This document shows, piece by piece, positions 2,097 through 61,293 of a stretch of 64,000 nt of DNA. The stretch lies in assembly GCF_023008545.1 (NCBI RefSeq), contig NZ_CP095398.1:558001-622000 (forward strand), in the 5' to 3' direction. Under the pieces are notes generated by a model. The model did not search any database and was not told the origin of the DNA. It worked only from the letters and a program-made list of their open reading frames with translations. Made by a program: the position numbers and the translations under genes. This stretch comes from Natribaculum luteum. GTDB taxonomy: Archaea > Halobacteriota > Halobacteria > Halobacteriales > Natrialbaceae. The first letter of the stretch is position 1. Each line of letters opens with the position of its first letter.

Positions 2097-2135
2097 ATTT
2101 AACCAGTTATCGTACGATGGAATCGTGCCGGTTTC

Positions 2136-10421: not shown

Positions 10422-11541
10422 TGCCTTGTTTTGCCGCCGATTGACGGCAACTTCAGACGTTCTCACAGGAAGGTTCCGTCAGATTAACCGGGAAATGGAC
10501 GCCGTCTGGCGATATGGCATCGCTCAGACGACTAGCGCGAATGTGTCGAGACCTTGCCAAACAGCACGTTGACGATCCGGACGTACCCGCCGCGCCGGAT
10601 GGCGCGGACGGGTACGCCAAGTGGACACAGATCGCGTTAATTCTGTTCCGCGTCGAACTGGAGAAGAGCCTCCGTGAGACTGAAGACTACCTCAACGAGA
10701 TGCCAGGTGTTCTTGCTGTGTTCGATCTCGACGAGGCACCGCACTACAGCTCGTTCTGTCGGTGGGAGCAGGAGTATCAGATGCGTGAACTGCGCCGCCT
10801 GCTCCGCGCTTCGGCGGAGCAGGCGGGCTGGAGTGGTGAAGCTGCGATTGATGCAAGTGGCTTCCAGCGCGATCAAACCAGCTACCACTACCGCGACCGA
10901 GCGAACTACTCATTCCAGTCGATGAAGACAACGATCTTGATCGACGTGAACTCACTGGCGATCAAGGACGTTCATTTTACGACGCAGAAGGCCTGGGACG
11001 GCCACATCGGGATGCAGGTCTTCCGCCGGAACGCGGAAGACCTGCGTGTGTTGTCTGCTGACGCGAACTACTCGTGGAGCGACCTCCGTGAGGAGTGTCG
11101 CTCCGAGTCAACGCGACCGTTGATCAAGCACAGGGAGCAGACACCGTTGCAGAAGGCCCACAACGCACGAATGAACGATGACTACAACCAGCGCTGGATG
11201 AGTGAAACCGGCTTCTCGCAGTTGAAGCAAGACGACGGCGAGAAGCTCCGCTCCCGGAGCTGGCACGGCCAGTTCCGGGAGCTAACTCGCAAGTGCATCG
11301 TGCATAACCTAACGCAGGCGGCGAGTTAGGGCTCGCCGCCTGCTCCCCTTTTCCGGACGTATCCGGGAGAGGCATCGCCGTCGTCACCGGAACAACGGAG
11401 CAAGGTACCATAGTTTTGACTCATCAGCAATCGCTGTGACTGACAGCTACTGCATCTTCTGAGGTCGAAAAGCCGTCTCTAACGTCGTGAAATTGTAGAT
11501 CAGCAACCCCACCCCGATGCCGTCTTGCGTTCAACAAGGCA
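10422..11541 (+). mobile_element. ISH1-like insertion sequence (IS5 family), 1120 bp
   Basis: Ends are TGCCTTGTT at the left and AACAAGGCA at the right, with further partial inverted similarity, and they are flanked by an exact 8-base target duplication CGATGGGA (10414-10421 and 11542-11549). The size and 8-base duplication agree with ISH1 from Halobacterium. It sits inside tnpB and encodes one intact transposase. The region between the transposase stop and the right end (11330-11541) is part of the IS. Confidence 0.93.
10514..11329 (+). CDS. IS5-family (ISH1-type) transposase
   Basis: A 271-residue DDE transposase filling most of the 1120-bp element. IDASGFQRDQTSYHY holds the first catalytic aspartate, VLSADANYSWSDLREECR fits the second, and SETGFSQLKQDDGEKLRSRSWHGQFRE holds the glutamate, in the spacing of ISH1-type enzymes. 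The open frame appears undamaged. A second, diverged but intact relative lies at 46777-47592; the two share the C-terminal FRELTRKCIVHNL almost exactly. Confidence 0.93.
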   Translation: MASLRRLARMCRDLAKQHVDDPDVPAAPDGADGYAKWTQIALILFRVELEKSLRETEDYLNEMPGVLAVFDLDEAPHYSSFCRWEQEYQMRELRRLLRASAEQAGWSGEAAIDASGFQRDQTSYHYRDRANYSFQSMKTTILIDVNSLAIKDVHFTTQKAWDGHIGMQVFRRNAEDLRVLSADANYSWSDLREECRSESTRPLIKHREQTPLQKAHNARMNDDYNQRWMSETGFSQLKQDDGEKLRSRSWHGQFRELTRKCIVHNLTQAAS

Positions 11542-11599
11542 CGATGGGACCAGAACGCGTGTGTCTTAGTGTTCACTGTCGCCGACCAATGGGTGTCCA

Positions 11600-13002
11600 C
11601 ATTGGTCTTTAGCTAAGCCTCAGCAGCCGGTTGGATGGTAGTAGCGAGCTGTTCTTGCAGGATTGGTCGTTGCCTGTGGATCTTCTGAGCGTCTTCGATC
11701 AGTCGTTGTAGCAGTGGCGGCGGTGAGTAGGCGAGATACTCTCTCAGTTCGCGGAGGATGAGCTGGGCGTGCGACCGAAAGGTCGCCGCCCAGCGTTCCG
11801 GCGGAAACACGATCCCATCATCAGCGTGCTCTATGACCAGACCGAGTAAATCACGACTCACGACCAAGGATAACAACGCTGCGTACAGCAGAATCTCTAC
11901 GATGTGCTTCTTCGTCGTGTCGAACTCGTCCAGTTCGTACTGCGTCTTCAGTTCACGGAACAACAGCTCTACTTCCCATCTACATCGGTAGATCGTCGCT
12001 AGATCGGCCGGGAGAAACTCTTCCCGAGAAAGGTTCGTGATGTACAGATGGTAGTCGTCGGCGTCCTCGTTGCGGACGCCGACGACGCGGAACCGTTTCG
12101 TATCACGTGACTGCGTGCCCGCGTACTCTCGTCGGTCAAACTCGACCTCGACTTCCACGTCGATGTACTTCCGGGAGAGATCATCCACGATGTCGAAGAT
12201 CTTCTCGCCTTCTAAGGGAATGGCGCGGCCGCGCCATTCCCGTAATTCCTCCGTTACAACCGGGTTCGCGCTCTTTTTCAGTCGGCTCACGAAGTAGCCG
12301 TCGTTCTCGTCGATCAACGCGAACCGCCGGTACTTGAAATAGGCGAGGTCGAAGATCGCTAGCCGTCCTTCCAGCCACGATCCTGTGTTAAACAACGTGC
12401 TGTCGTGCGTTTTCTCGTCTGTGACGTTGAAATGTTCGACTGTCTGGTCAGTGACGTTGTGGAGCAGGTGGAGCTTCGCTCCAGCCTGCTCCTCGTGACG
12501 TGCTTTGTACGCTTCAGAGAGCAACTCGTGCAACCGCAGGACGGTTCCATCAGCGATCATCACGTCTCGAAACCGGTCGAACTCATCAGAGACGGTGTGA
12601 GGGACAGCGACCTCGTCGAACCCGTATTCGACGAGGTCGCGGAGGTACTCTGCGAGCGTCGGAGTCAACCGCTGGTAGAAGCCGCCCGGAGAAAGTGACT
12701 CGTCAGCGGTAGAGTTGTAGGTACGTCTGAAGGCCGCAAGCGTTCGGCTTTCGCCTGCGGCGAAGCCGAACGCAAACGACCAGACAAGTGGCGGGAGCTG
12801 AAGCTTCCCCTCGCGCTCGACCACGCCGACGGCATCGGCGTGGTCTTCGAGCGCTTCAGAGGGAAGGAGGTTAGTGAGACGGCGTTCAATGTGACGTGAG
12901 GAGGTTTCGGTGTGCACAGCTGTCACCTCCTCATTCCTTCCGAAAAGCAACTCCGATAAGCCGCCGCTGTCATGCGGTTCTTGGCTTAGCTAAAGACGGA
13001 TG
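11600..13002 (-). mobile_element. ISH8-like insertion sequence (IS4 family), 1403 bp, copy 1
   Basis: Termini CATTGGTCTTTAGCTAAGCC and, inverted, CATCCGTCTTTAGCTAAGCC, with an exact 10-base target duplication TGGGTGTCCA at 11590-11599 and 13003-13012. The length and 10-base duplication match the ISH8 group. It is inserted in tnpB just after the VGDLTDVLDTH segment. A second copy of identical length and apparently identical sequence lies at 29196-30598 in the opposite orientation, which points to recent activity. Confidence 0.93.
11613..12950 (-). CDS. IS4-family (ISH8-type) transposase, copy 1
   Basis: A 445-residue DDE transposase. The IS4 signature Y-(2)-R-(3)-E-(6)-K is met exactly by YRCRWEVELLFRELK. 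Upstream, VMIADGTVLRLHELL contains the first aspartate and IFDLAYFKYRRFALIDEND the second. The protein is identical to that of copy 2 (29248-30585), so both should be functional. The internal perfect palindrome ggaatggcgcgg/ccgcgccattcc (about 12220-12241) is part of the coding sequence. Confidence 0.95.
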   Translation of the reverse strand: MLFGRNEEVTAVHTETSSRHIERRLTNLLPSEALEDHADAVGVVEREGKLQLPPLVWSFAFGFAAGESRTLAAFRRTYNSTADESLSPGGFYQRLTPTLAEYLRDLVEYGFDEVAVPHTVSDEFDRFRDVMIADGTVLRLHELLSEAYKARHEEQAGAKLHLLHNVTDQTVEHFNVTDEKTHDSTLFNTGSWLEGRLAIFDLAYFKYRRFALIDENDGYFVSRLKKSANPVVTEELREWRGRAIPLEGEKIFDIVDDLSRKYIDVEVEVEFDRREYAGTQSRDTKRFRVVGVRNEDADDYHLYITNLSREEFLPADLATIYRCRWEVELLFRELKTQYELDEFDTTKKHIVEILLYAALLSLVVSRDLLGLVIEHADDGIVFPPERWAATFRSHAQLILRELREYLAYSPPPLLQRLIEDAQKIHRQRPILQEQLATTIQPAAEA

Positions 13003-45159: not shown

Positions 45160-46551
45160 ATGACCTTCTACGACCGGGAGGCGGAACTCGATACCCTCAC
45201 CGCCGCGGTGGAGTCCCCCGGTGCGGACTTCATCGTTGTTTACGGCCGACGTCGAGTCGGGAAGACGGAGCTCCTCAAAGAATTCTGTGCCAATCGCCCC
45301 CACATATACTTCCTCGCCGCGCAGGAGGCCGAGCATAGACAGCGAGAGAAGTTCCTCAACCAGATCGCAGACCACTTCGACGAGCGCGTTCCGCGAATCG
45401 ACGGGTGGGACGAGGCGTTCGAATACCTCGGGGAGCAACTCCAGCGTGAGGATCTCGTCGTCGTCATCGACGAATTCCCATATCTCGTCGCAGAGAACGA
45501 CTCACTCCCGTCGTACGTACAAGCGTTCGTCGACCAGGAACTCGATGGGACGGATTCGATGCTCGTACTTTGTGGGTCGAGCGTGAGTACGATGGAGTCA
45601 GAGATCCTGGGACACGAGAGCCCACTCTACGGGCGACGAACGGCACAACTCGACGTGACGCCGTTCTCGTTTCAACAGGCCCGAGAGGTCATCTCGTACG
45701 ACATCCAGGATGCGATTCGCTCGTATGCCGTCACGGGTGGCACCCCGATGTACCTCACGCTGTTCGACTACACACAGTCGCTCGCGGCGAATATTCAGTC
45801 GCACGTACTGTCACCGTCTGCAGTGCTGTATAACGAACCAGAGTTCCTCCTGCGAACCGAGCTCCGAAACCCGGCCCGGTATATGAGTATCCTCGAAGCG
45901 GTCGCGCTAGGCCATACGACACCGAACGAGATCTCCGGCGCAACGGGGATCGACTCGGGACCACTCTCGAAGTACCTACAGACACTTCGCCGACTCAGGC
46001 TCATCGAACGAGACGTTCCAGTCACGGCCTCGGGGAAGAAATCAAAGCGGTCACGGTACCGGGTGGCTGATGAGTTCCTTCGGTTCTGGTTTCGGTACGT
46101 CGAGCCGAATCGATCCAGTATCGAGGAAGCACCGGAGATCGTGTACGACGGGACGATTGAGCCGGACCTCCCAACGCACGTCGCAACCACGTTCGAAGAT
46201 GTGTGCCAAGAAGCCGTCTGGGAAGGGATTCGACGCGGCACGTTCGAGCCGTACTCAGAAGTCGGTCGCTGGTGGTACGGAGAAGAAGAGATCGATATCG
46301 TCGGGTTGGCACCGAATGACGACCGAGTCCTCCTCGCCGAATGTAAGTGGACGACGGATCCGATTGGGGAAGACCTCGTCGAAAGCCTACGAGCAAAGGC
46401 AGAGAACGTCCGATGGGGACCGCCGGATCGAGACGAGCAATTCGCCCTGTTCTCGAAAAACGGATTCGTCGACGGACTCGAAGCGCAACTCGACGACTCG
46501 TGGTCCCTGTTCAGCGTAGCGGACCTCGACGAGCTACTCACGCCGTCCTAA
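45160..46551 (+). CDS. Archaeal AAA ATPase with DUF234 nuclease-like domain
   Basis: A 463-residue protein. The N-terminal ATPase has Walker A VYGRRRVGKTELL and Walker B VVVIDEFPYL, with sensor-like LVLCGSSVSTMES. A winged helix follows (EISGATGIDSGPLSKYLQTLRRLRLIER), then the DUF234 domain with RVADEFLRFWFRYVEPN and a possible PD-(D/E)xK site (EEEIDIVGL...VLLAECKW). Proteins of this build are common in archaeal accessory regions and of unknown job. The frame keeps its own stop although an ISH1-like element inserted across it. A tttaagtc element at 45125 is a likely TATA box. Confidence 0.9.
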   Translation: MTFYDREAELDTLTAAVESPGADFIVVYGRRRVGKTELLKEFCANRPHIYFLAAQEAEHRQREKFLNQIADHFDERVPRIDGWDEAFEYLGEQLQREDLVVVIDEFPYLVAENDSLPSYVQAFVDQELDGTDSMLVLCGSSVSTMESEILGHESPLYGRRTAQLDVTPFSFQQAREVISYDIQDAIRSYAVTGGTPMYLTLFDYTQSLAANIQSHVLSPSAVLYNEPEFLLRTELRNPARYMSILEAVALGHTTPNEISGATGIDSGPLSKYLQTLRRLRLIERDVPVTASGKKSKRSRYRVADEFLRFWFRYVEPNRSSIEEAPEIVYDGTIEPDLPTHVATTFEDVCQEAVWEGIRRGTFEPYSEVGRWWYGEEEIDIVGLAPNDDRVLLAECKWTTDPIGEDLVESLRAKAENVRWGPPDRDEQFALFSKNGFVDGLEAQLDDSWSLFSVADLDELLTPS

Positions 46552-47738: not shown

Positions 47739-47954
47739 ATGCCTGTTCTGGACGATCTCTCCGGGTTCGAGTTCGAGGACGTGATGGAAGATGTTTTCCG
47801 GAATCTTGGCTACGAGAACGTTCGACAAGCAGAACGGACGGCTGACGAGGGGCGCGACATCCTCATGGAGGAGGTCGTGGACGGGACTCGGAGAGGCATT
47901 GTCGTCGAAGTAACTCGCTCGTTCTGGAATGCGACGTGGAACGAACTCTTATAA
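47739..47954 (+). pseudogene. Mrr-type restriction endonuclease, truncated
   Basis: The first 57 residues (LSGFEFEDVMEDVFRNLGYE, RTADEGRDILMEE) match the N-terminal half of the Mrr_cat/restriction-endonuclease domain with its first acidic residue. The sequence leaves the family at GIVVE, exactly where the catalytic ECK motif should follow, and ends as VTRSFWNATWNELL. Without the lysine it cannot cut DNA. It probably belonged with the ATPase before the ISH1-like element came between them. Confidence 0.7.
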
Positions 47955-48044
47955 CTGGTGTCGGTGGATCGAGGAACACTCTCGACCTCACGCGTCCACC
48001 CCCTCGAGTCTGAGCCAGCGCAGTAGCAGTTCGATCCACGCCGG

Positions 48045-48242
48045 TCACTCCTCATCGCGGTTCCTGTATCCGTCGGCATCCAGGTCGAACAGCGGAACGG
48101 CGACGTCGTCGTTCACACCGAACACCCACCGTCGACCGTCCTCGAGACGGACGTCGACGCGTGCGTGGTCGTTCGGACTTACGGAGATTTCGACCTCGAC
48201 GAGCCGACCGGCCTCGAGGTCTCCGCTTCGCTTCAACCTCAC
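48045..48242 (-). CDS. Small acidic protein, possibly cut short by a nonsense codon
   Basis: A 65-residue beta-rich protein from a GTG at 48242 (VRLKRSGDLEAGRLVEVEIS). It stops at RNRDEE, but the same frame continues with PAWIELLLRWLRLEGVDA to another stop at 47988, which looks like a natural helical C-terminus. So a longer ancestral protein of about 85 residues may have gained a TGA. No family recognised. Confidence 0.5.
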   Translation of the reverse strand: MRLKRSGDLEAGRLVEVEISVSPNDHARVDVRLEDGRRWVFGVNDDVAVPLFDLDADGYRNRDEE

Positions 48243-48472
48243 AAGGGTTCGTCTGAAACTATTCTGTAGGAGCTCCGGAGACAGCTGACGTCTTCAGACA
48301 CGCCTGCACCAGAGTCACTCGAGTAAGACCGACGACGACCGATCGAGTGACGTACACACAAGTAGCCGTACCGAGCAAACCACCGCCTTCGTGCAGGGTT
48401 TCAGTGTGGCGTGAAGAGTGCAGTCCTTCTCAGGGCTTGTGAGTTGCCTGGGGACACCCTCGAGTGTGGACG
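48243..48472. other. Intergenic, nothing recognised
   Basis: About 230 bases, no convincing frame, repeat or promoter. Confidence 0.3.
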
Positions 48473-49345
48473 TCAGGTGTCCCCGGACTCGAACTCACCT
48501 GGAATCTCGGCGTCGTCCATCAGCAGGACTCGTCGTTCGGTGTACTCGAGGCCGTTCTTTCGTTGCCGCTTCTTTTTGACCGCGAGCCGGTTCTTCGAGA
48601 GCTCGAGCAAGGCGTCGATCGTCCGCGAGACGAGCTTCTTCGCGTAGGAATCGCTGACGCCCTGTTCTTGCCGACGGATCCAGTGTTTCAGGTCGCCGGC
48701 ACTGACGTACTCGCGAACGCCAGCGCTCCCTTTTCGCCAGGGGTTGTCACCAACCGTCGAGTCGACACGCGCCTTCCAGAGCTTCGCAGCGAGTCGTGAC
48801 GGCAGTGCGGACGTCGTTGCACGGAGCATCTCCTCGTCCATCCTGGCCAGTTGCTGGATGGGGAGGAGGTCGCCGTAGGCGAGCGCGACCCGACCGCCTC
48901 GCTCGAGTGGGTCCTCACTCTCTGGGAGTCGGAAGTAGCGCTGCCCGTCGTCTTTCCGGATGCGCTCGAGGCGGTCGTCGGGAACGTCGATCTCGTTTTC
49001 GTCGACGTGATCCGCGAGGAGATGTGCCCCCTTCTCGAGTTCGCGCGCCTGGAGTTCGCCGACGCGATCTTTGTTCGCGTCGAGTTTCTTCTCGTGGGCG
49101 TCCAGGCGCGCCTCCGTCTGTGTCCGGCACGTCTCGAGTTCGGCCTCGAGTTCGTCGACGCGGGCCTGGAGGCGCGCGTTCTCCTCGGTCGTCTCCTCGA
49201 GTTCGGCCTCGAGACGCTCGAGACGCTCGTCCCGGTTTTCGAGGGCGGTCTCGAGATCGGCGATACGTTCCTGGAGGGTCGTGAACTGGTCGCGAAGCTG
49301 GTCTGCGGTCGGCTGGGTCGAATCTGCAGTCGTGTCTGTTGGCAT
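48473..49345 (-). CDS. Coiled-coil protein of accessory-element type
   Basis: A 290-residue protein. Residues about 15-100 form a long heptad coiled coil rich in leucine and glutamate (RIADLETALENRDERLERLE). The second half is globular and basic: WRKGSAGVREYVSAGDLKHWIRRQEQGVSDSYAKKLVSRTIDALLELSKNRLAVKKKRQRKN, probably DNA-binding and helical. I recall similar proteins on haloarchaeal plasmids, but cannot name a family. The next upstream gene in the same orientation is also plasmid-like. Confidence 0.75.
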   Translation of the reverse strand: MPTDTTADSTQPTADQLRDQFTTLQERIADLETALENRDERLERLEAELEETTEENARLQARVDELEAELETCRTQTEARLDAHEKKLDANKDRVGELQARELEKGAHLLADHVDENEIDVPDDRLERIRKDDGQRYFRLPESEDPLERGGRVALAYGDLLPIQQLARMDEEMLRATTSALPSRLAAKLWKARVDSTVGDNPWRKGSAGVREYVSAGDLKHWIRRQEQGVSDSYAKKLVSRTIDALLELSKNRLAVKKKRQRKNGLEYTERRVLLMDDAEIPGEFESGDT

Positions 49346-49448
49346 GGGTCTGAATCTGGATCTGGAGTCGTCTGGCTGGCGAGCGTCGTAACTCGAGTCG
49401 GCGCAACGCTGAACGGGTGAGACGGCGGCCTTCGGGTCGATCGATTCC

Positions 49449-49516
49449 TCGAGGGTCCCGTCTCGAGGGTCTCGTCTCGAGGGTCTCGACTCGAGGGTCC
49501 CGTCTCGAGGCGAGGG
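49449..49516. repeat. 14-base tandem repeat, about 4.8 units
   Basis: Unit tcgagggtcccgtc / tcgagggtctcgtc repeated in register four times and a partial fifth, immediately downstream of the stop of the 49525 gene. It is non-coding. It may be a slippage tract or a binding array. Confidence 0.8.
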
Positions 49517-49524
49517 AGCCGGCG

Positions 49525-50571
49525 TTACCTTCGCTCCTCGCGGTCACCCCGTGACCTGCACTCTCGTTCGCCGGCGGTCGAGTCGGGCCCGAGATCCGTG
49601 GTGGCGTGGCGACCACGGTGGCTGCCCATCGGGAGCGTCGTGTCGTCGGTCACGTCCCGGTGCTCGTCCGGACGCTCGTCGCACTCGCCGTCTCGACCGA
49701 GGCGGGCGACGACGACCTCGGGACACCGGAGCACGACCGAAAGCGACTCGACTCGAGCGCGAATCTCGCGGAGGTGTCGCCGGGCGATTCGACGCTCGTC
49801 GGCTGTGAGCCCGTCGTCGGTCTCGAGCCACTCGAGGAGCGTCCCCGTCTGCTCGTCGATGGCTGCGAGGCGCGTACGGGGGCGGGGGTGGGCGGTCGTC
49901 CGCTCTGTATCGTCAGACTCGCACTCTCGCCCACCGTCGGTCACGACGCGTGGATCGTCGCCGGCGTCGACGAGCAGGATGTCGTCACCTTCGAGGTCGT
50001 ACACCCGGACGTCGTCGCCGGGGTCGACCTCGAGGGTCTCGAGGACGGCCGACCCGACGCAGACTCGAGCGCGGCGGTGGCGTCGGAGGACCCGGTAGCT
50101 GGCGATGGTCTCGGCGTCGGTCGTGCTGGCGCGGAGGGCGACGCCGTCCTCGTGGTCGATCGCGTGGACGCGGTGGGCTCGAGGCCACGCGCCGAGCCCG
50201 GCGGTCCCGATCGAGAGTCTGCGATCGTCACCGACGGTGTAGGTCGCGAGGTAGCCCTCCCCCGTCGGGACGACGTACCTCGAGTCGGTGCCGCCGTCGG
50301 CGAGGAGGATGCCGTCGTGTGCGAGGAGTTCGACGCCCTCGTCGTCGGGATGGGCGTGTGTGAGAGCGGAAGGATCAGGTGACTCGCGGTCGGACGAGTC
50401 TCCTGGACGAGGGGCAGGGGGTGTCCGCTCTCTCGTCCGTGCATCCGCGGTGTGACGCGGGTGCGTTTTCTGTGTGTCCTGGGGATCGTCTGGACGATCG
50501 TCGTGTCGATCGGGCGATGCTGTCGACTCGAGGACCCTATAGTTATGAGTCCAGAGGCTGTCTTTTCGCAT
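49525..50571 (-). CDS. Acidic hypothetical protein of accessory-element type
   Basis: A 348-residue protein from the ATG at 50571 (MRKDSLWTHNYRVLESTASP). The first 75 residues are disordered and rich in Asp, Arg and Pro. The middle is beta-rich, with two similar segments (GVELLAHDGILLADGGTDSRYVVP and VRVYDLEGDDILLVDAGDDP). A helical segment (LEWLETDDGLTADERRIARRHLREIRARVESL) and another disordered tail follow. No known domain is recognised. It shares orientation with the coiled-coil gene 180 bases downstream, so they may be one unit. Confidence 0.65.
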   Translation of the reverse strand: MRKDSLWTHNYRVLESTASPDRHDDRPDDPQDTQKTHPRHTADARTRERTPPAPRPGDSSDRESPDPSALTHAHPDDEGVELLAHDGILLADGGTDSRYVVPTGEGYLATYTVGDDRRLSIGTAGLGAWPRAHRVHAIDHEDGVALRASTTDAETIASYRVLRRHRRARVCVGSAVLETLEVDPGDDVRVYDLEGDDILLVDAGDDPRVVTDGGRECESDDTERTTAHPRPRTRLAAIDEQTGTLLEWLETDDGLTADERRIARRHLREIRARVESLSVVLRCPEVVVARLGRDGECDERPDEHRDVTDDTTLPMGSHRGRHATTDLGPDSTAGERECRSRGDREERR

Positions 50572-50779
50572 GGCTTCTGAAACCCCGTGCAGGGATTCGG
50601 AAGTCAAGCCTGGCGTGTGGAGGCACGCCGGGTAGCTTTCGTACCCTGATAGCTTGGCTTCCAATTCATCGTTGATACTCCCAGTAACATAATGTTTACT
50701 GCGAATTACTCAGTGACTGCTGGAGGTTGCGCAATAATTAAGGCTTTTCTGATAGTATCCCTACGCAATCGAGACTACT

Positions 50780-51079
50780 ATGAGTTCGACAGTGGACACA
50801 GGAAATACAATGCGACAGCCTGCGGATTGGATGGTTCCCAGTGACGACCGGATATTAGAGCTACTTCGAGAAGAGGGGAACCTGACACCGCAGGCTGTCG
50901 AAGATTTCGGAGGGCCTGTCGCAGGTCATGCAAGCGATCGTCTTCCAATGCTAGCTAAATACGGACTCGTCACAAAGATTTCTCGAGGTCTCTATCGGAT
51001 TACAGATGAAGGTGAAGCGTATCTAGATGAAGAACTTGATGCGAGCGAACTCGAGTCAATTGAAGATACTAAAGGGTGA
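50780..51079 (+). CDS. Winged-helix regulator (phiH1-repressor-like)
   Basis: A 99-residue protein starting MSSTVDTGNTMRQPADWMVP; a start at the internal ATG 50810 is also possible. DRILELLREEGNLTPQAVEDF and ASDRLPMLAKYGLVTKISRGLYRITDEGEAYLDEEL form the winged helix typical of haloarchaeal phage phiH1-like repressors, with the ADWM motif at the front. It lies just before the AT-rich membrane gene in the same direction and may control it. Its own DNA is less GC-rich than its neighbours. Confidence 0.85.
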   Translation: MSSTVDTGNTMRQPADWMVPSDDRILELLREEGNLTPQAVEDFGGPVAGHASDRLPMLAKYGLVTKISRGLYRITDEGEAYLDEELDASELESIEDTKG

Positions 51080-51239
51080 GGCAGCTGCTCACTGGAAATC
51101 TTTATTATCTATTCAACACCGTCACTGGCTTCGAACCAAGTTGTCGCGGGTTCAGATCTGTTGGCGACAGTTAATTAGGCGCGTAGTCATATTTGGTACG
51201 AAACAAATATAAAACATTGACTGAAATCTTAAGACAGGA

Positions 51240-52823
51240 TTGACTCGGAAATATAGTAAAATCGGATCTGTCCTATTACGTATCATCTCCTACATCCCTG
51301 GGTACATTTCAGTTCGGGCACTGGTGATTATAGCAGCAGTCTTCGAAGGGTTGCGGTTTACGGGATATCTGTTTACAGAACCAATCATCACGTCATTACT
51401 GAAGATTACTTCAGTTTACTTTATTAATAGTGGAATGGTCACAACATTAATTGGTCTATTCATAACCATATCAGTAATATTTAGTGTGGGAGTTAATATT
51501 TTTCCTCATAAGAGAACAGAGGAATTAACTATACTTGATATGGTTTGTATTATACAATCGCTTTTTGCAATTCCACTCATCCGACCAGTTATGACTGGAG
51601 GGAGTGTTATCTCCCCGGTGTTAATTTTGGTTATAATATTTGGTGTATATTGGATCTATTTCCATATTTTCACTCAGAAACGATTAGAGAAAAGATTAAT
51701 CAAATCAGTACTTTATTCCGCACTATCCCTTCTGTTAGCTGCTACTGTTGTTTTATTTGAAGGTCTGGCTGTTTGGCTAGCAATCATTGTAGTTTTTAGT
51801 ACTTTTTGGAACAAATTAAGATCAACTCAATATACCGGAGATTATCCAGTCATAGATGCGAATATTGAACAGGAAGTTTTTAACTTCGCATCCAAATCGA
51901 TAGATAATATAAAATACCTAACTACATTCTTGATGGTCCTGTGTGGGTTTAAAATAGCCATCACTCTGATTAGCGGCGATTTTATTTATTACCATAATCT
52001 CCTAACTCTATCAAGATATCTTATAAAAGGGCTTTTAATTCAGAAACAATATCTGATAGAAAGTATTATTTTATACATTTGGATTAGTCTGCCACAAATT
52101 ACATCGGCCATCTTGGGCGTTTATTCGCTGCAGTTTTGGATTGTTGAAATGCGGCGCTTGAATTATTACTATTCCAATAATGGAAAATCAGCTCATGTAT
52201 CTCTTCCACTTAATATGGCTCCAGTTCTCCCCGTTAGTTACATGGGATTTTGGATCGGGTTACAAATCCCCTCTGGCCCCTATAATCCATATCTTATAGT
52301 ACGGAAGCTGTATTCTACAACACAAATAATACAATTCGTTGAGGTATTTCTATGGTTGATTATTTCTATATTTCCAATACATGCAATTTATTGGCGGATA
52401 AAGCCCTTTGTAGATGAGTTCCGAGGAGGCAGATCTCGAATACGTAGAGAAAGGGACTCGGAATCATACAACTACAATTATATGGTATTCGGGTTTGTAA
52501 TCCAGATAGTAGTCGTAGTGCTTTTACAATTTTTCTACCCATCACAGCCATTCTCTATAATTTTTGGTAAACAGGGTAATCTGATCCTCCTGATTTTAGT
52601 TCCCCTTACAATATTATCCACCACCATTACTTCACTACTGTCAAAAAATATATTCTCGCCACTAATATTTTGGACACTCTCAATGATATTTCTTTATTAT
52701 TATTCAATCAGATTTGGCAACTCAATAGGAGCAGTTTTTGTTTTCCTGTCAGTCACGTTCATATCAATATATTCGCTAGATAAATACATTGATGAAGGAT
52801 GTATGACAAATACGCCAATGTAA
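51240..52823 (+). CDS. AT-rich polytopic membrane protein, unknown
   Basis: A 527-residue protein with roughly twelve hydrophobic segments over its full length and a basic cytoplasmic loop around residue 400 (FVDEFRGGRSRIRRERDSES). The only start giving the full frame is TTG at 51240; an alternative ATG is at 51435 or later. Codon use is strikingly AT-rich and Ile/Tyr/Asn-rich, unlike every neighbour, so it was acquired from elsewhere. No transporter signature is seen. It sits directly upstream of the McrB/McrC genes and downstream of a winged-helix regulator. Confidence 0.75.
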   Translation: MTRKYSKIGSVLLRIISYIPGYISVRALVIIAAVFEGLRFTGYLFTEPIITSLLKITSVYFINSGMVTTLIGLFITISVIFSVGVNIFPHKRTEELTILDMVCIIQSLFAIPLIRPVMTGGSVISPVLILVIIFGVYWIYFHIFTQKRLEKRLIKSVLYSALSLLLAATVVLFEGLAVWLAIIVVFSTFWNKLRSTQYTGDYPVIDANIEQEVFNFASKSIDNIKYLTTFLMVLCGFKIAITLISGDFIYYHNLLTLSRYLIKGLLIQKQYLIESIILYIWISLPQITSAILGVYSLQFWIVEMRRLNYYYSNNGKSAHVSLPLNMAPVLPVSYMGFWIGLQIPSGPYNPYLIVRKLYSTTQIIQFVEVFLWLIISIFPIHAIYWRIKPFVDEFRGGRSRIRRERDSESYNYNYMVFGFVIQIVVVVLLQFFYPSQPFSIIFGKQGNLILLILVPLTILSTTITSLLSKNIFSPLIFWTLSMIFLYYYSIRFGNSIGAVFVFLSVTFISIYSLDKYIDEGCMTNTPM

Positions 52824-53116
52824 TTTAGTACCCGAATTGCTCTCTGGGTTAATATACCCTAAATGTATTCTGTTGATTAGGGGGTACGGCGTCGGGAGGG
52901 GTGTGCTAAGGACACGTCCAAGTGATTGAACGGGAAATCTCAGAAATCACTCTTCGATTCTTCCAGCACACTATATATATATATATATATATATGCTCTG
53001 CTAACAATACCTCAAATAATAAATCACACTATATGGTTAAAACCAAATAATTCATCAGTGATTCTCAGATTCCTTAACAGGATTTATAGGAAGGTCCTGT
53101 GTCGTGTTACGGAATA
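52824..53116. other. AT-rich intergenic region with (TA)n tract
   Basis: About 290 bases between the AT-rich gene and the McrB gene. A run of about eleven TA pairs lies at 52972-52994. The final 30 bases before the McrB start contain no clear Shine-Dalgarno. No gene is seen. Confidence 0.6.
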
Positions 53117-56100
53117 ATGACAGACGAGCGCCGGATGTCTACCGTTCGCTTCTACGGTAGCATCGAAGATCGGTTGGGGATTCTCACCGATTTACTCTCA
53201 TACCTCACACAACAGAACGACGGAATTCCACGAGACGAGGTCATCGACTGGCTCATATCCAATACGAACGCACAAACAGCAAACGCGGTCGGGGACCGTC
53301 TGAACTTCCTCGAGGAACTCGGACTCATCGAACACCAGGAGAACCGATACAGCCCTACTCACACCGCCCGCTGGTATCTCAGAGACCGAGACCCGATCGT
53401 TCTGTACAATGCCCTCCGGACGACCGTCAAGGGCTTCGACACGATCATCTGCGCAGTAGCACGCGAGCCCAGAACCGACGAGGAGCTCATGGAAGTGCTC
53501 GTGAACGCCTTCGACGAGTGTGAGATGGAGACGCCGGGAGTCGCAACCCGACACCGGGAGTGGCTCCAGATGCTCGGCTACGTCGAACGGGACGACGAGC
53601 GAACCCACCTCACTTCGGACGGCAAAGAAATCGCCAACCAACTCGAAGGCATTTCCAACGTCGACCTCGAGCCGAACGCGATCTACGACCGCCGTGACCT
53701 CCACTCCAAATACGGCGGCAGCATCCAGGGTGGAATCGCCCCCTCCAGAGATGAGCCGGTCGTCTTCCTCTTCAGTGGCGGAACCGGGGAGGACCACGGC
53801 TACCAGGACGAGATCCGCCCCGACGGGACGGTGATCTACACTGGCGAGGGACAGGTCGGCGACATGGAGATGAAACGCGGGAACGGCGCGATCAGAGACC
53901 ACCTCGAGGACGGCCGCGAGCTCCACTTCTTTACGATGGAAGAGGAAGGCGTCCGGTACGTCGGCCAGTACCTGTATGCCGGCCACTTCTTCGAGGAACT
54001 TCCTGACTCGGAGGGGAACCTCCGTGAGGGAATCCGGTTCAAACTTGCACCGGTCGACAGGGACCCCAAACCGACCCTTCACGCTGAATCCGCCACCAGC
54101 ACCGACTCGACGAATTCCGATCTCAGGCAGTTCACCGATCCGACCGTCTATCAGGTACCGGTCAAGACTGGCGACGGACCGATTCGAACGAATTTCGATC
54201 GGACGATACTCGAGGGCGTCCCACGAGAGCAGCTAGAAGGGATCTACGATCTGCCGATCGACCACGACACCCTTCGGGTATGGGGAAACCAGGAGGACGA
54301 AGCCGCCGAGGAAGGCGACTACCTGATGTTCGCCGATCGCAACGGACGGAGAGGCGGCGAGTACACCATCGTCGCCCGTGTCGCTCATGCAACGGTCTTG
54401 GACCGTGACACAGCAGCCAGATTCACCGACGCGGTCGGCTGGGGCGAGGTCACCGACGAAATCTTTCCCCACGTCCTGTTCCTCGAGCCACTCTACGAGG
54501 CGGAACTCGACCGGGAGGCGTTCTGGGCCACGTTAGGCTTCAAAGGCTGGCCGAACGATACCTACAGCGCCATCAACTTCGATCGGAACGGCTCGAGTTT
54601 CTACGACGAATACGCCTCCGTCGAGGAGTTCATCGGCCAGATCACGGGCCGACAGCTCTATCCCGACGACACCGTTTCCGAGTACGACTCCCTCGAGCAC
54701 GCACTCGAGGACGTCCGCTCGAGCCTGGCCCACGAAGACGAACCGTCGTGGCCGAAAACCCGTATCGGCGAAGCCGTCATCAAAGACTGGTCCGACGCAC
54801 TCACGGGGTTCCGACCGGCGGACGAGGTCGACCCCGATACCGCCGCGAAACTCGAGCAGATCCGCCGGGTCTACGAGCGCCTCGAGTCGGAACTCGAGAC
54901 GAAAGCCGACGAACTCGAGGTTGGGACGCTCGATGCGTTCACTCCTGCCCAGACGTTGTTCCTCTGTGGGGTCCGTCTCGTCCAGGAGGAGTCCGACATG
55001 CCGGGACCGTTCAACCAGCCCCGTCTGAACAGCGTCCTCACTGGTGCCTACACGACGCCCGACGAGCAACCTGACCAACCATCGGACGTGGACGTGGACG
55101 TGGACGTCGATCACCCACTGGCGACCTACATCGAAACCACGGAACCGACCGTCTACAAGTTCACCGCACCGCCGGATTACTGGCTCACCGCACTCGAGTT
55201 CGCGTCGATTTCGTTCGAGGAGGCCGACCGGGAGGGATGGGACCGCCTCGAGGCCGGCGACGTCGTCGTGTTCCACTCTCGAGCGGCACCATCGAACGCT
55301 GACCTCGACGACCAGCCAGGCGGAATCATCGGCTTCGGGATCATCGGGCAGACGTTCGAAACGTCGGAGCCGTGGTGGTGGGACGAACACCACAGGGACA
55401 GCGAGTTCCCGCTGATCGCGAGTTTCGACCGGCTGTTCCTCACGGGTGACCTCGAGCGAATAGATCGCGCCCGCGAGATCGCCGCGAAGGAACCAGCCGA
55501 GATCGAACGCGAACTCGAGGCGCTGACGGCGAACTGCCTGCCGATCGAAGAGGCCAACCGGACCTGTGAGGTCACCACCGGGACGGAGTTCCCCGTCCAG
55601 TCGATGTACGGAACGTTCCGGACGGATGGCGGTGAGATCGATCGCGACCGGCCGATGGCGCTCATCGACGCCATGGCCGACGACCTGACCGAAGTCTCAC
55701 CGATCAATCCGTACAGGTCACTCGAGGGCACGCTTCCGGCGGAGATTCTCGAGGGCCTTCACTTCGAAGACGACCTCGGGGAGAAGATCCTCGAGCAGAT
55801 CTCCACGGCCCTGCGCTCTGGAAAACACGTCCTCCTCACGGGACCACCGGGAACGGGGAAGACCGAAATCGCAGAGCGCGTCTGTGAGCACCTCACGGAA
55901 ACACAGCCGCATCTCTACTCGGGCTTCGAGATGACCACGGCCACGGCCGACTGGTCGACGTTCGACACCGTCGGCGGGTACATGCCGAGCGAGTCCACGG
56001 AGGACGACGACCTCTCGTTCAAACCCGGGATCGTCCTCAACCGCCTCAAAAACTCCCAGACAGGCACTCAGGCGAACGATCTGCTCGTCATCGACGAGCT

Positions 56101-56749
56101 CAACAGGGCGGATATCGACAAAGCGTTCGGCCAGCTCTTCACACTGCTCTCGGGCCAGTCCGTCCAGCTCCCCTACACCGTCGACGGGCGGGAGGTCGAA
56201 CTGACCACCGACGAGGACGTCGATGGAACGCCGGCCAGCAACCAGTACGTCGTCCCCAGCTCCTGGCGGATCTTCGCGACGATGAACGCCTACGACAAGA
56301 CGTCGCTGTACGAGATGAGCTACGCGTTCATGCGCCGATTTGCGTTCGTGCGCGTTCCAGCGCCGACGCTCCCGGAGGCGACGGAAGCCGACGACTCAGT
56401 CGAGGACATCGTCCTCGAGTACGCGAACGCCTGGGATCTCGAGATCACGCGGCGAGAAGCCGGCGCAGTCGGGCGCGTCTGGCGAACGGCAAACACCGCG
56501 GTTGACGAGCGCTCGATCGGGCCGGCGATCATCGAAGACGTCCTCCGGTATGTCAGCCACCATCCCGACGAGGAGCTCAAATACCACCTCACACAGGCGG
56601 TCATCAGCTACATTTTCCCGCAGCTAGAGGGCGTTCCGAAGCGAAAGACGATCGTCAGAGGACTCGCCGCCGTGCCAGACATCGAGACACCACTCCTCGA
56701 GAGCGCAGCCAGAGAGATGCTCCAGGTCCCCCTGCCCACGAATGAATAG
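53117..56749 (+). CDS. mcrB: McrB-type AAA+ restriction subunit with SRA-like and EVE-like reader domains
   Basis: A 1210-residue GTPase-type motor subunit of a modification-dependent restriction system. In order: two winged-helix-like segments (about 8-85 and 95-165); an SRA-like domain at about 190-320 (RRDLHSKYGGSIQGGIAPSR, YTGEGQVGDMEMKRGNGAIR) like that of ScoMcrA; two EVE-like modules at about 342-505 and 675-790 (WLTALEFASISFEEAD, GGIIGFGIIGQTF); and a C-terminal McrB AAA domain with Walker A GPPGTGKT at 909-916, Walker B LLVIDELNRAD at 989-999 and the McrB signature MNAYDK from 1056. Bacterial McrB is about 460 residues. The start is the ATG at 53117. It overlaps mcrC by eight bases. 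Confidence 0.9.
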   Translation: MTDERRMSTVRFYGSIEDRLGILTDLLSYLTQQNDGIPRDEVIDWLISNTNAQTANAVGDRLNFLEELGLIEHQENRYSPTHTARWYLRDRDPIVLYNALRTTVKGFDTIICAVAREPRTDEELMEVLVNAFDECEMETPGVATRHREWLQMLGYVERDDERTHLTSDGKEIANQLEGISNVDLEPNAIYDRRDLHSKYGGSIQGGIAPSRDEPVVFLFSGGTGEDHGYQDEIRPDGTVIYTGEGQVGDMEMKRGNGAIRDHLEDGRELHFFTMEEEGVRYVGQYLYAGHFFEELPDSEGNLREGIRFKLAPVDRDPKPTLHAESATSTDSTNSDLRQFTDPTVYQVPVKTGDGPIRTNFDRTILEGVPREQLEGIYDLPIDHDTLRVWGNQEDEAAEEGDYLMFADRNGRRGGEYTIVARVAHATVLDRDTAARFTDAVGWGEVTDEIFPHVLFLEPLYEAELDREAFWATLGFKGWPNDTYSAINFDRNGSSFYDEYASVEEFIGQITGRQLYPDDTVSEYDSLEHALEDVRSSLAHEDEPSWPKTRIGEAVIKDWSDALTGFRPADEVDPDTAAKLEQIRRVYERLESELETKADELEVGTLDAFTPAQTLFLCGVRLVQEESDMPGPFNQPRLNSVLTGAYTTPDEQPDQPSDVDVDVDVDHPLATYIETTEPTVYKFTAPPDYWLTALEFASISFEEADREGWDRLEAGDVVVFHSRAAPSNADLDDQPGGIIGFGIIGQTFETSEPWWWDEHHRDSEFPLIASFDRLFLTGDLERIDRAREIAAKEPAEIERELEALTANCLPIEEANRTCEVTTGTEFPVQSMYGTFRTDGGEIDRDRPMALIDAMADDLTEVSPINPYRSLEGTLPAEILEGLHFEDDLGEKILEQISTALRSGKHVLLTGPPGTGKTEIAERVCEHLTETQPHLYSGFEMTTATADWSTFDTVGGYMPSESTEDDDLSFKPGIVLNRLKNSQTGTQANDLLVIDELNRADIDKAFGQLFTLLSGQSVQLPYTVDGREVELTTDEDVDGTPASNQYVVPSSWRIFATMNAYDKTSLYEMSYAFMRRFAFVRVPAPTLPEATEADDSVEDIVLEYANAWDLEITRREAGAVGRVWRTANTAVDERSIGPAIIEDVLRYVSHHPDEELKYHLTQAVISYIFPQLEGVPKRKTIVRGLAAVPDIETPLLESAAREMLQVPLPTNE

Positions 56750-58109
56750 AGACGACCTCCTCGAGCAACTCACGGAGGATATCCTCGCCTACGCGATGGG
56801 CGGGACGTTCCCGGAGCGAGAACTCGCTCGCTCGATCAAACCCGAGCAGTTAGACGAGCGCTTCGAGGAGTACGAACTCCTGTTGGACCTCCACTTCATC
56901 CTCCAGGACGACGTCGTCGAGTTCGTCAGACAGCTCTCGGAGCACCTGCGCAGCATCCGAACCGAAACCCGGACGACGTCCCGAATGCGACGCGGGACCG
57001 TCGACGGGCGGATCAACTGGGGCGAGACGATCAAGAAGCGGTACTCGCAGTACCCTCGAGACAACTCGATTTTCGTCTGCGATAACCGATCGGTGAACTA
57101 CGACATCCCCGAGAACATCGTCCTCAAGCGGCTCATCTCCGTCGTTCATCGAACGACTCGAGAGGCCGAGGAGTACCTCCGTGGGGAGTACGACTGGGTG
57201 AGCGAGACCTGGAAGGGCAGCGAGGACCTGATCGACGAACTCCAGCGGATCGTCGAGCGGAACGTCCACGTCCGACGGATTCGCGAGCCGGACACGTACG
57301 AGCCGACCGAACGGATGTTGACGACGGCCGCCGAGTCACGCCACGAAGTCTACCGAGATGCAGCCGAACTGCTCAGGTCACGCCAGCGGTTGTTCCGTGG
57401 CGAGCCCGAGGAGATCCGGCGATTGCTCGAGGAAACTGCCATCGCACCGGACGACACCGATTCGCTGTTCGAGCTCTTCGTCCTGTTTCGGTTCGTCGCC
57501 ACGATCGAGGATCTCCGAGAGACGCAACCGCAGTTCAAGACGATCGCGACCGATCGCCAGGAAGTCGCCCGCTTCGACGGCGACAGGGAGATCGTCCTCT
57601 ATCACGACAATTCCGCTCGAGATCGGAAACTCTCCTTCGTCGCCGTCCCGGACGAGGACAAAGAAAATCCCTCCCGGACGGACCAGGTACAACTCGTTGC
57701 ACAGGAGATCGCGGGGAACTACTTCGAGAAAGACTACCGGAACCACACGGGTCGTCCCGACGTCATCGTCCTCGAGATCGTCTCGGCGGACGAAAACGAG
57801 CACGAGTACCTGATCGTCGAGGTCAAAAACAGCACCAACGAGGACACGATCCGGCGGGGAATCAAGGAGACACTCGAGTACCTCGCCTTTCTCCGTGTGA
57901 ACGAGGAGTACGTCTTCGGTCGTGAGGACGAGGATGGGGATGGAAACGGGGACTACTTCGGCTCTGGGTGGAACGGGCTCCTGGTGGTGCAGGACCTCGA
58001 GGAAGAGACGGCGTCACTCGAGGACCAGTCCGATCGCGAGATTGCCATCCTCCAGGCTTCGGAGCTGGAAGACGAGTTGGAAACGATCCTCGGAGAAGTT
58101 GTATGTTGA
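56742..58109 (+). CDS. mcrC: McrC-like PD-(D/E)xK nuclease subunit
   Basis: A 455-residue partner of the McrB motor. The nuclease core is at the C-terminus: TGRPDVIVLEIV (Asp340) and EYLIVEVKNST (Glu360, Lys362), followed by an arginine-rich helix (TIRRGIKETLEYLAFLRVNEE). The N-terminal 300 residues are mostly helical and should contact McrB; DNSIFVCDNRSVNYDIPENIVLKRLI and DRKLSFVAVPDEDKENPSR are typical of archaeal versions. It begins inside mcrB (8-base overlap), so the two are coupled. Its stop codon lies inside a TTGAC motif that starts a perfect palindrome. Confidence 0.9.
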   Translation: MNRDDLLEQLTEDILAYAMGGTFPERELARSIKPEQLDERFEEYELLLDLHFILQDDVVEFVRQLSEHLRSIRTETRTTSRMRRGTVDGRINWGETIKKRYSQYPRDNSIFVCDNRSVNYDIPENIVLKRLISVVHRTTREAEEYLRGEYDWVSETWKGSEDLIDELQRIVERNVHVRRIREPDTYEPTERMLTTAAESRHEVYRDAAELLRSRQRLFRGEPEEIRRLLEETAIAPDDTDSLFELFVLFRFVATIEDLRETQPQFKTIATDRQEVARFDGDREIVLYHDNSARDRKLSFVAVPDEDKENPSRTDQVQLVAQEIAGNYFEKDYRNHTGRPDVIVLEIVSADENEHEYLIVEVKNSTNEDTIRRGIKETLEYLAFLRVNEEYVFGREDEDGDGNGDYFGSGWNGLLVVQDLEEETASLEDQSDREIAILQASELEDELETILGEVVC

Positions 58110-58146
58110 CATCCTCCTCCGCGTTCACGCAGAGGAGGATGTCAAC
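58105..58146. terminator. 42-base perfect palindrome between convergent mcrC and fic genes
   Basis: gttgacatcctcct and aggaggatgtcaac are exact reverse complements, and the 14-base core contains a second small hairpin (gcg/cgc). It begins with the same TTGACnTCCTCC seen at tnpB right ends, so it is probably an element relic that now can serve as a bidirectional terminator for two genes ending on either side. Confidence 0.6.
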
Positions 58147-58153
58147 CACTGGT

Positions 58154-59422
58154 CTATCGATGGTCAGGGAGCTGCCATACGTGTTCGAGATCAACTAGAT
58201 CGCTCGCGTCTGGGAGTTTACGGTCTTCCTGCTTGACGATATCCATGATTTCCTCGGCTCGAAAGACTCGGTTTCGCTCGTTCCCCGTTATTTCGGTGAC
58301 GACGCCGTCGGCTTTCAGTTGCTCGACTGCCGTATTCGCAGTTGGGTACGTCACATCGATTCGTTCGCTAATTTCTTTGACAGTGAAATACGGAGTTTCA
58401 AACAGCGCGAGTGCGAGTCGTCGTACCGAGGGTCGGTCAGCAGCATACCGCGCTTCGTACTGTTTGCGGGTGTCGATAAGGAGCCGTGCCCGAACGAACG
58501 CCTCTTCGGCCTGTTGACGGATGCCACGAAGGAAGAACTGAAACCATGCATCCCATGCACCCTCTTCGCTGACGGCAAGCAGTCGGTCAGCGTACTCCGT
58601 CCGGTGGCGTTCGATGTACGAACTCAAGTAGAGCATTGGATAGTGGAGCGATCGGCTGGCGATGAGCAAAAGAACGACGAGCAAACGGCCGACTCGACCG
58701 TTCCCGTCTTTGAACGGATGGATCGTCTCAAACTGATAGTGGGCGATCGCAATGTCGATCAGGTCAGGCCAGTTCGTCCCGTGCTGGATAAACCCCTCGA
58801 GATCGTCCATTAGTCCGGGGACTGAGCCGCTTTTCGGTGGGATAAACCGGATTTGCGTTCCGTGGAAGTGGGGATGGTCCTCTTCGATGACGGCAAACCC
58901 GGGACGGAACTCACCGGGAAGAGGATCCTCTTCGTCTGTTCGACCCTGTTCGAGCAGTTGTCCGTGCAGGGTCCGTATGAGCTCCGTCGTGATACTGTCT
59001 CGATCGAACCCAGCAGTCCGGAGGTACGACACCGCCTCCTCGAGTGCGAGGATGTAGTTTCGTGCCTCCTGAACGTCGACTTCATGATCGCTCGTAGGCG
59101 TTTTTTCAACTTCGAGTTGGTCGATGTCGTATCGGTAGATGTCCGACACTGTGACTGCAGTCCCCTCGACTCGCGATGACTGTTCAGCCTCCTTGTATAC
59201 GAAGGAACTGAACACTGCACCGGGGTTCTCGATCTCGCTCCCGAGTCCCTCGAGTCGACCCAATGCCCACATCGCCCGCGCACACTCGGTGATGACTTCC
59301 TCGGAGAGATCCACCCGTGGAGGGAGTGGCTCCGGGAGGTACATCTTCGGAAGTGGCTCGTTCGTTCGGAGTGGGATGTATTGGCCGGGAGCTTCCGATG
59401 GAAGATCGTAGCCATCTTTCAT
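58154..59422 (-). CDS. Fic-family protein with C-terminal winged helix
   Basis: A 422-residue protein from the ATG at 59422 (MKDGYDLPSEAPGQYIPLRT). The Fic active site is HPFKDGNGRVGRLL, complete with catalytic histidine and anion loop, so it should transfer AMP or another nucleotide group to a target protein. An inhibitory-helix motif SSRVEGT lies near residue 80, upstream of the Fic core, as in class II Fic proteins that restrain themselves. The C-terminal 80 residues form a winged helix (FTVKEISERIDVTYPTANTAVEQLKADGVVTEI). Target unknown. It ends 45 bases from mcrC, convergent. Confidence 0.92.
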   Translation of the reverse strand: MKDGYDLPSEAPGQYIPLRTNEPLPKMYLPEPLPPRVDLSEEVITECARAMWALGRLEGLGSEIENPGAVFSSFVYKEAEQSSRVEGTAVTVSDIYRYDIDQLEVEKTPTSDHEVDVQEARNYILALEEAVSYLRTAGFDRDSITTELIRTLHGQLLEQGRTDEEDPLPGEFRPGFAVIEEDHPHFHGTQIRFIPPKSGSVPGLMDDLEGFIQHGTNWPDLIDIAIAHYQFETIHPFKDGNGRVGRLLVVLLLIASRSLHYPMLYLSSYIERHRTEYADRLLAVSEEGAWDAWFQFFLRGIRQQAEEAFVRARLLIDTRKQYEARYAADRPSVRRLALALFETPYFTVKEISERIDVTYPTANTAVEQLKADGVVTEITGNERNRVFRAEEIMDIVKQEDRKLPDASDLVDLEHVWQLPDHR

Positions 59423-60048
59423 TGTCGCCACTTTCGACCCGCTCAATGAAAATCTTCGGGGTAAAGTTTGAATAGCACACGCATTCTAGTCATCGTTAGT
59501 ATACTCACCGGGTTCTGGATTGAACTAGGGATATAATTGATCTCCACACACAGGTAAAAGAAAGGACGGGTTGGATTGTCGGAGTACGCCGTGGGACCCG
59601 AATGGAATCGATACGAACTACCCCGCTCGAGTGATGTGGGCCAGACGGGTTTTGTTACTGATAAGTACATCGGTGAAAGCAGGGGTCTGAAAAAGCAGAA
59701 AGGGCGGATGTGTCGGTGACCATTTTCCGGGCGGTTTTTCTAAACCTCCTATTTATGATATTTTAGAAAGGTATGTGAACTGCCTCGAGGTCGAGTGGTT
59801 CGAGACACGAAGCAGCTCGTTATCGAGCGAAACCGACAATTTCCGGACGACCTCGTGGTCCGCCTTAAAATTCTGTGAAGACGACGCTGACGTGGTCTCA
59901 ATCCGAGACGATCTCGAGCAAGATTCCGACGTACCGTCGTTCCACAGCAGCTCGATGGCGTCTACCGACGACGAATACGTCGGGCCAAAGCCCGAAGAGT
60001 CGGGGTATTCACCTCGAGCGACGATGAACCGCTCAGAGTCGACCGGTG
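59423..60048. other. Region without a firm gene; possible small remnant
   Basis: About 625 bases. Plus-strand sequence from 59789 reads VVRDTKQLVIERNRQFPDDL, and after a frame change CEDDADVVSIRDDLEQDSDV, with sensible acidic composition: it looks like a broken reading frame of an unknown protein. The first part is related to 23379-23425. AT-rich DNA around 59740-59770 could be its promoter. Confidence 0.4.
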
Positions 60049-60282
60049 TCACTCCTCGAGTCGGTCGGCAACCATCGCGTCGACGTTGTAGAAGATGATC
60101 CCGACGGAGGCCAGACTCGTCGCCAGGTAGACGACGAACGGGACGGGGCCGGACGTAACCGTGCCGAGTGCCCCGCCGACGATGCCGACGATCAACAGTT
60201 CGAACCACGTGAGCAGGCTTCGCGAGAGGATCGTCGCCCTCGGTCGCACCGTCTCGCCGCTCGAGGTGTCGTCGCGGTCCAT
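60049..60282 (-). CDS. Small membrane protein, third gene of the cytochrome bd operon
   Basis: A 77-residue protein with two hydrophobic segments (about 25-45 and 48-66), starting MDRDDTSSGETVRPRATILS and ending in an acidic MVADRLEE. It starts three bases after the cydB stop. Bacterial bd oxidases have a single-helix small subunit (CydX); this one is larger and unrelated in sequence, but its place suggests an accessory or assembly subunit. Confidence 0.78.
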   Translation of the reverse strand: MDRDDTSSGETVRPRATILSRSLLTWFELLIVGIVGGALGTVTSGPVPFVVYLATSLASVGIIFYNVDAMVADRLEE

Positions 60283-60285
60283 TCG

Positions 60286-61293
60286 TCAGTACCCCTCACC
60301 TGCTTCGATCGGACCGCTGAACGACGAGTAGAGCACGGCGAAGTAGAGGAAGATGAGCGGGAGCAGGATACTCGCACCGATCGTCATGACGTTGAGCGGA
60401 AGCGTCGAGACGATCGCGTCGCCGACGGTGAGGCCGGTGCCGGGTTCGATGGTCGGGTACATGAGTCGCGCGACGACGGCGACGAGTGCGAACACGAGGC
60501 CGCCGCCGGCGACGAACGCCGTGTAGAACCGATCCTGCCGCGTCGCGACGACGTAAATGCCGCCGAGTACCACGGACGTGACGACGAGTCCGAGCACGAG
60601 CGGCGAGAGGAGCTTCTCCCGGAGCGTGGGGTACGCCGCGTACACGTAGCCGAGCGTGATCACGACGAGCGCGAGATAGGCGACGACGGCCCACTGGCCG
60701 TGTGGTCGGAGCTCCGTCCGGAGCGAGCCTCGAGTTTTGAGTCTGACGAACGCGACGCCGTCGACGATCGTCAGCGCGACGACGACGAGTCCGACGACGA
60801 CGCCGGGCAGTGTCACGATCGAACTGGTGCCGAGCATCCAGTTGCCGACGAACAGACCGAGCAGGAACGGCGCGACGACGCTCCCGAAGACGAACGCCCG
60901 ACCCCACCAGCGCTGCCAGCGCTCGTCCTCGCGTTGCTCGTACATCTCCGGTGCGAGTCCGCGGACGATGAGTGCGCCGAGGATCGCGAACATCAGCAGG
61001 TAGTATCGCGTGAACACCTCCGCGTAGACGGCCGGGAAGGCGGCGAACATGGCCCCACCGAACACGACCAGCCACACCTCGTTGCCGTCCCAGAACGGGC
61101 CGACCGCTGCGAGTAGCTGCTCGCGTTCGTGTTCGTCGTCCCTGATCGCGAACAGCGCGCCGGCACCGAAGTCGAACCCGTCGAGAAACAGGAACATCGC
61201 GAGGATAAAAAACAGGAGTCCGAACCAGATCTCCGGGAGAGGCAGCCCGAACAGCGGCTCGGAGGCAAGCGACGCGAGACTAGTCGTCGTCAT
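60286..61293 (-). CDS. cydB: Cytochrome bd ubiquinol oxidase subunit II
   Basis: A 335-residue membrane protein with eight to nine helices. Family marks: FFILAMFLFLDGFDFGAGALFAI near the start, GPFWDGNEVWLVVFGGAMFAAFPAVYAEVF, and a C-terminal LNVMTIGASILLPLIFLYF. It forms the heterodimer with CydA and carries no haem ligands of its own. It overlaps cydA by 14 bases, so its translation is coupled. The quinol in haloarchaea is a menaquinol. Confidence 0.95.
   Translation of the reverse strand: MTTTSLASLASEPLFGLPLPEIWFGLLFFILAMFLFLDGFDFGAGALFAIRDDEHEREQLLAAVGPFWDGNEVWLVVFGGAMFAAFPAVYAEVFTRYYLLMFAILGALIVRGLAPEMYEQREDERWQRWWGRAFVFGSVVAPFLLGLFVGNWMLGTSSIVTLPGVVVGLVVVALTIVDGVAFVRLKTRGSLRTELRPHGQWAVVAYLALVVITLGYVYAAYPTLREKLLSPLVLGLVVTSVVLGGIYVVATRQDRFYTAFVAGGGLVFALVAVVARLMYPTIEPGTGLTVGDAIVSTLPLNVMTIGASILLPLIFLYFAVLYSSFSGPIEAGEGY

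Follow-up and report, generated by a model that had tools for sequence, protein, structure and literature searches.

An orphan membrane-protein gene beside McrBC in Natribaculum luteum as a probable exchangeable cargo of a hypervariable plasmid slot

Between a small winged-helix regulator and the McrBC genes of Natribaculum luteum lies a gene for a polytopic membrane protein, which a preliminary description had put forward as a candidate new defence component. This raises the question of whether the gene belongs with McrBC, with the regulator, or with neither. The window, that is the whole stretch of 64,000 nucleotides that was analysed, is carried on an 862-kb contig of this haloarchaeal genome. 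The features from which the question starts are as follows:

45160..46551, forward strand: DUF234 ATPase (PF03008, E 8e-26; PADLOC candidate PDC-S27, E 2.8e-59)
about 47739..47954, forward strand: truncated Mrr-like N-terminus of about 71 codons (MPVLDDLSGFEFEDVMEDVFRNLGYENVRQAERTADEGRDI...), translation read by eye
50780..51079, forward strand: PhiH1-repressor-like winged-helix regulator (wHTH) of 99 aa, member of a recurring cassette
51240..52823, forward strand: orphan polytopic membrane protein of 527 aa, TTG start, GC 35%, without any homolog
53099..56749, forward strand: McrB-like AAA+ protein (AAA_5), start likelier the ATG at 53117
56742..58109, forward strand: McrC partner, with a PD-(D/E)XK-like motif read by eye and no Pfam match
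58154..59446, reverse strand: Fic protein (PF02661; PADLOC SoFic, E 7.5e-103)

The wHTH and the 527-residue ORF are both present where they had been reported, and the identification of the former as a PhiH1-repressor-like regulator is confirmed by its match to phrog_2440 (E 1.5e-33). Profiles likewise confirm McrBC, the DUF234 ATPase and the Fic gene in the island, and the truncated Mrr gene is recognisable by eye. The view of the locus as rich in defence-type genes, with a membrane ORF of foreign composition, is supported. The McrB-like protein is 1216 aa in length and has a long N-terminal region (the two restriction genes occupy 53099-58109), and close McrB relatives are found in many Natrialbaceae, some of the matches being without about the first 340 residues. 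At the corresponding N. breve locus, only the first 29 residues of the DUF234 ATPase match, followed by another gene.

The membrane ORF is a real, intact gene and not a product of chance, because none of 2000 Markov simulations of the region gave a run without stops longer than 188 codons, as against 527 in the ORF, and because the remaining five frames carry 25-48 stops across it. Its GC content is 35.4% and its GC3 33%. A hydropathy scan of the protein found 11 strong segments and weaker ones, about 11-13 hydrophobic helices, which fits the AT-rich protein of about 12 helices previously described. Its codon use had been called unlike that of any neighbour. This holds against the neighbours tested, which have a GC3 of 63-80% (the codon-use correlation with McrB is 0.15), but not for the wHTH, which has a GC3 of 38% and a correlation of 0.54. 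Upstream of the start lies a promoter-like element:

51205..51214, forward strand: TATA-like box (AAATATAAAA), 35 nt upstream of the TTG of the membrane gene

This box suggests that the membrane gene has its own, nearly leaderless transcript. The spacing from the box at 51205 to the TTG is much like that from the mcrB box at 53083 to the ATG at 53117, and this spacing points to nearly leaderless transcripts for both genes. A run of TA repeats is found between the two genes, at about 52971-52993.

The earlier statement that the protein matches no known family was borne out. Pfam and NCBIfam gave no family at E 0.1 and the PDB gave no chain at E 1. Nothing matched in the PHROGs, the plasmids or the viral contigs, while the phages gave one weak match (E 0.6) and PADLOC a single chance-level match (E 0.016), the only one to any profile known for McrBC or for defence. 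Among overlapping samples of 125 genomes of the family, 391 of the class, 393 of the phylum and 392 of the order, only the window itself rose above noise, and two scans of genome contigs, of a kind that reaches close relatives only, found no homolog. Several matches with E values of about 1e-3 to 0.1 (G173, G255, G511 and others) were rejected as homologs, being short, hydrophobic and inconsistent in position. No active site was recognisable in the protein, and an AlphaFold2 model of the single sequence had a pLDDT of 47, too poor for use. The preliminary description had proposed tabulating the neighbours of homologs, and had named homologs in housekeeping contexts or a clear match to a transporter family as outcomes that would speak against a defence component. 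Neither was seen, since the searches turned up no homolog of any kind.

The gene can be placed by comparison with the sister species N. breve (L047) and N. longum (L063). The former aligns to the window at 47950-50603 (93.7%) and again at 53066-58924 (97.8%), and the latter at 48179-50474 (96.3%) and again at 53066-61148 (97.8%). Two features follow from the alignments:

50475..53065, no strand: segment whose place is taken by other DNA in the sister species (left break at 50474 in N. longum, 50603 in N. breve; right break 53066 in both)
53083..53088, forward strand: mcrB core promoter (TTTATA), conserved in five loci, just inside the right break

In N. breve the segment holds a different wHTH (63% identical) and a gene, by our reading S8-peptidase-like, that is broken by what we read as a transposase. 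In N. longum it holds a wHTH (68%), an AT-rich gene that matches PDC-M30A and that we take to be TcmP-like, two mutually similar genes and an S8 remnant. The N. breve S8-peptidase-like gene lies in pieces with the transposase gene inserted (L047, 10890-13789), and N. longum shares its S8 remnant (L063 reverse complement, 11121-11919) with N. breve. In two more distant loci, in G106 (L049) and G007 (L056), mcrB comes directly after the wHTH with no insert. The right break at 53066 lies just upstream of the TTTATA element. Close relatives thus carry the same flanks with different content between them, which is what is expected of hotspot cargo. On the other hand, the link to McrBC that had been drawn from position fails: the two sister species, whose McrBC proteins are 97-99% identical, lack the membrane gene at this position, so do the two more distant loci with the wHTH directly before mcrB, and no conserved co-occurrence with mcrB and mcrC was found. 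From the comparisons with N. breve, N. longum, G106 and G007, the membrane gene is, judged by sequence, a lineage-specific occupant of the slot, on which McrBC would not depend.

The left side of the slot consists of a recurring cassette (window 48473-51079), in which the wHTH is divergent from two other genes:

48473..49345, reverse strand: coiled-coil protein (CC290), of the recurring cassette, present in 82 of 125 Natrialbaceae genomes
49525..50664, reverse strand: 379-codon ORF lying between CC290 and the wHTH gene, with poor conservation beyond the genus
51080..51130, forward strand: tail 3' of the wHTH stop, conserved at the DNA level across loci, beyond which the variable cargo starts

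The cassette recurs on many Natrialbaceae replicons (loci L064-L071 and L076-L115); it was seen with differing cargo on named plasmids, and in about 40 further loci that have nearly no cargo in common. In about 35 loci the DNA is better conserved over the 3' end of the wHTH coding sequence and roughly 50 bp past its stop (window 51020-51130) than over most of the gene, and the alignment then falls abruptly to noise. For this tail, alifold predicted no pairs of a conserved RNA structure. As a sign of insertion by an integrase-type mechanism, a second copy of the junction was sought downstream in 44 loci, and a convincing repeat was found in L105 only, with matches of 14-18 bp in three others; the window itself has none of note.

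For a survey of such sites, 40 loci were picked by hand in which a wHTH related to that of the window lies near CC290 on the opposite strand (CC290 is listed in 39 of them, the exception being G047:C48), and L047, L049, L056 and L063 were added (n=44), so that the survey describes sites selected by wHTH similarity and presence of the cassette only. In the first 2 kb after the wHTH these 44 loci share almost nothing, a few related pairs excepted. The minimum 500-bp GC in the first 2.5 kb had a median of 0.40 at 40 sites, compared with 0.56 in 40 control segments taken at arbitrary positions of the same contig set and unmatched for gene type (Mann-Whitney p 9e-11). Recurrence of a marker cassette with differing cargo is a further property expected of a hotspot.

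Individual cargos of defence type include by profile a Type IIG RM enzyme (L081), a SMODS CD-NTase (L098), an AAA_15 OLD/AriA-like ATPase with a partner (L088) and DUF4365, together with PDC-M30A (L063), a CARF-like gene (L103), a Fic-like gene scoring just below the curated cut-off (L083), a weak Mrr_cat-like domain below the cut-off (L104) and, per existing annotation, a SIR2 protein at a plasmid locus (L066). In L098 the CD-NTase gene lies after the wHTH beside a 308-aa gene without a profile match (1835-3737), and the two are possibly a CBASS-like pair. In L088 (5824-7717) the ATPase, whose best PADLOC match is AriA, has after it a gene of 199 aa that matched nothing, and the two may be a PARIS- or OLD-like pair. 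Other cargos are of non-defence type (amidohydrolase, Cdc6, pentapeptide repeats, glycan flippases), and many more are orphans without assignment. None of the other cargo proteins of the surveyed slots matched the membrane protein.

Taken together, these comparisons argue that the membrane gene is very probably a swappable single-gene cargo of a hypervariable plasmid slot. The slot would lie on a haloarchaeal megaplasmid-type replicon. It is marked on the left by the conserved cassette and on the right, in Natribaculum, by the conserved mcrB core promoter. The DNA between the marks is exchanged between sister species, with different, mostly AT-rich genes following the wHTH in other genera. Because 40 of the 44 loci have no second junction copy, we infer that recombination within the conserved flanks brings about the exchange. 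The membrane gene would be expressed from its own promoter, independently of McrBC. More tentatively, the protein may work at the cell membrane against viruses or to exclude competing elements, since a number of the characterised cargos of such sites are genes of antiviral type; to this role by association we give somewhat less than even odds. To the explanation as a whole (slot cargo, a putative antiviral or exclusion role at the membrane, and independence of McrBC) we assign a probability of about 0.5. It is doubtful that the protein also founds a new class of single-gene haloarchaeal antiviral effectors with the cassette as a general Natrialbaceae plasmid slot for such systems. The membrane protein alone is unassignable, and the comparison gives it a recognisable address: the cassette, and then differing AT-rich, often defence-type genes. 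If the defence enrichment is confirmed, this address would offer a simple way to list candidate haloarchaeal antiviral genes, including orphans invisible to profiles.

The alternative that survives best, although we consider it unlikely, is that the protein is a highly diverged surface-glycan polymerase, flippase or other transporter that arrived with foreign DNA. Wzx/Wzy-type proteins are often polytopic, AT-rich and hard to align, and so is the membrane protein; polytopic genes that we take to be flippase-like follow the wHTH in L110, L112 and L113, and the weak G173 match covers 47 residues within a flippase-like ORF. However, the protein had no match in Pfam, NCBIfam or the PDB, no glycosyltransferase gene adjoins its gene, and the other polytopic AT-rich cargos, such as a 562-aa protein in L107, are not related to it.

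A two-gene system of wHTH and membrane gene, with the former as the repressor of a toxic or abortive membrane effector, is improbable. The two genes are adjacent on the same strand and both AT-rich at the third codon position, and in the sister species the wHTH differs (63-68% identity) along with the cargo, as such a system would have it. Yet in about 40 loci the wHTH is partnered by a cassette of its own, the two genes are 160 bp apart with a separate TATA-like box in that interval, and wHTHs 85-88% identical to that of the window precede other genes in other genera (G044, G047 and G097). These last show that the pairing of wHTH and membrane gene is not conserved, and the dedicated pair considered in the preliminary description gives way to the cassette. 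We hold it to be just as improbable that the membrane gene is foreign DNA in decay or without function: its protein has no homologs, and broken S8-peptidase remains lie in the same slot of N. breve and N. longum, but 527 stop-free codons far exceed the chance maximum and the TATA-like box is well placed. A dedicated component of McrBC, favoured by position, is very improbable, since no homolog of the membrane gene occurs in any of the sampled family genomes with McrB relatives, the gene is missing beside the nearly identical McrBC of the sister loci, and mcrB is served by a conserved promoter of its own on the far side of the right break.

Hotspots with exchangeable antiviral genes are already known, and so are dark-matter islands of archaea (PMC9122126, PMC4158269, PMC11078007). 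The slot resembles the antiviral hotspots in that constant genes of a mobile element enclose swappable, often antiviral cargo (PMC9122126), and it differs in that the replicon is haloarchaeal, the markers are the coiled-coil protein and the PhiH1-repressor-like wHTH, and the cargo is a candidate, antiviral by association. With the dark-matter islands it shares clustered orphan, fast-evolving genes, many of them for membrane proteins and some for defence, while the present slot is recognised from a recurring cassette and from direct comparison of sister species; a search of that paper by terms did not bring up the cassette (PMC4158269). The homeocassettes and genomic islands of Halorubrum ezzemoulense are likewise alternative islands between the same anchors in a haloarchaeon, with some restriction genes, whereas the present slot belongs to another genus, has other anchors and carries mostly short AT-rich cargo (PMC11078007). 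The wHTH of the window also resembles PhiH1-repressor-like wHTH proteins of haloviruses (BJ1 ORF20, pleolipoviruses) through its phrog_2440 match and its 60% identity with BJ1 ORF20 over 78 residues, and unlike these it stands within a plasmid-type cassette adjoining variable cargo. The literature searched, which was limited in extent, held no description of the cassette as a hotspot, and the coiled-coil/ORF/wHTH cassette appears to be a new example of the exchangeable hotspot kind.
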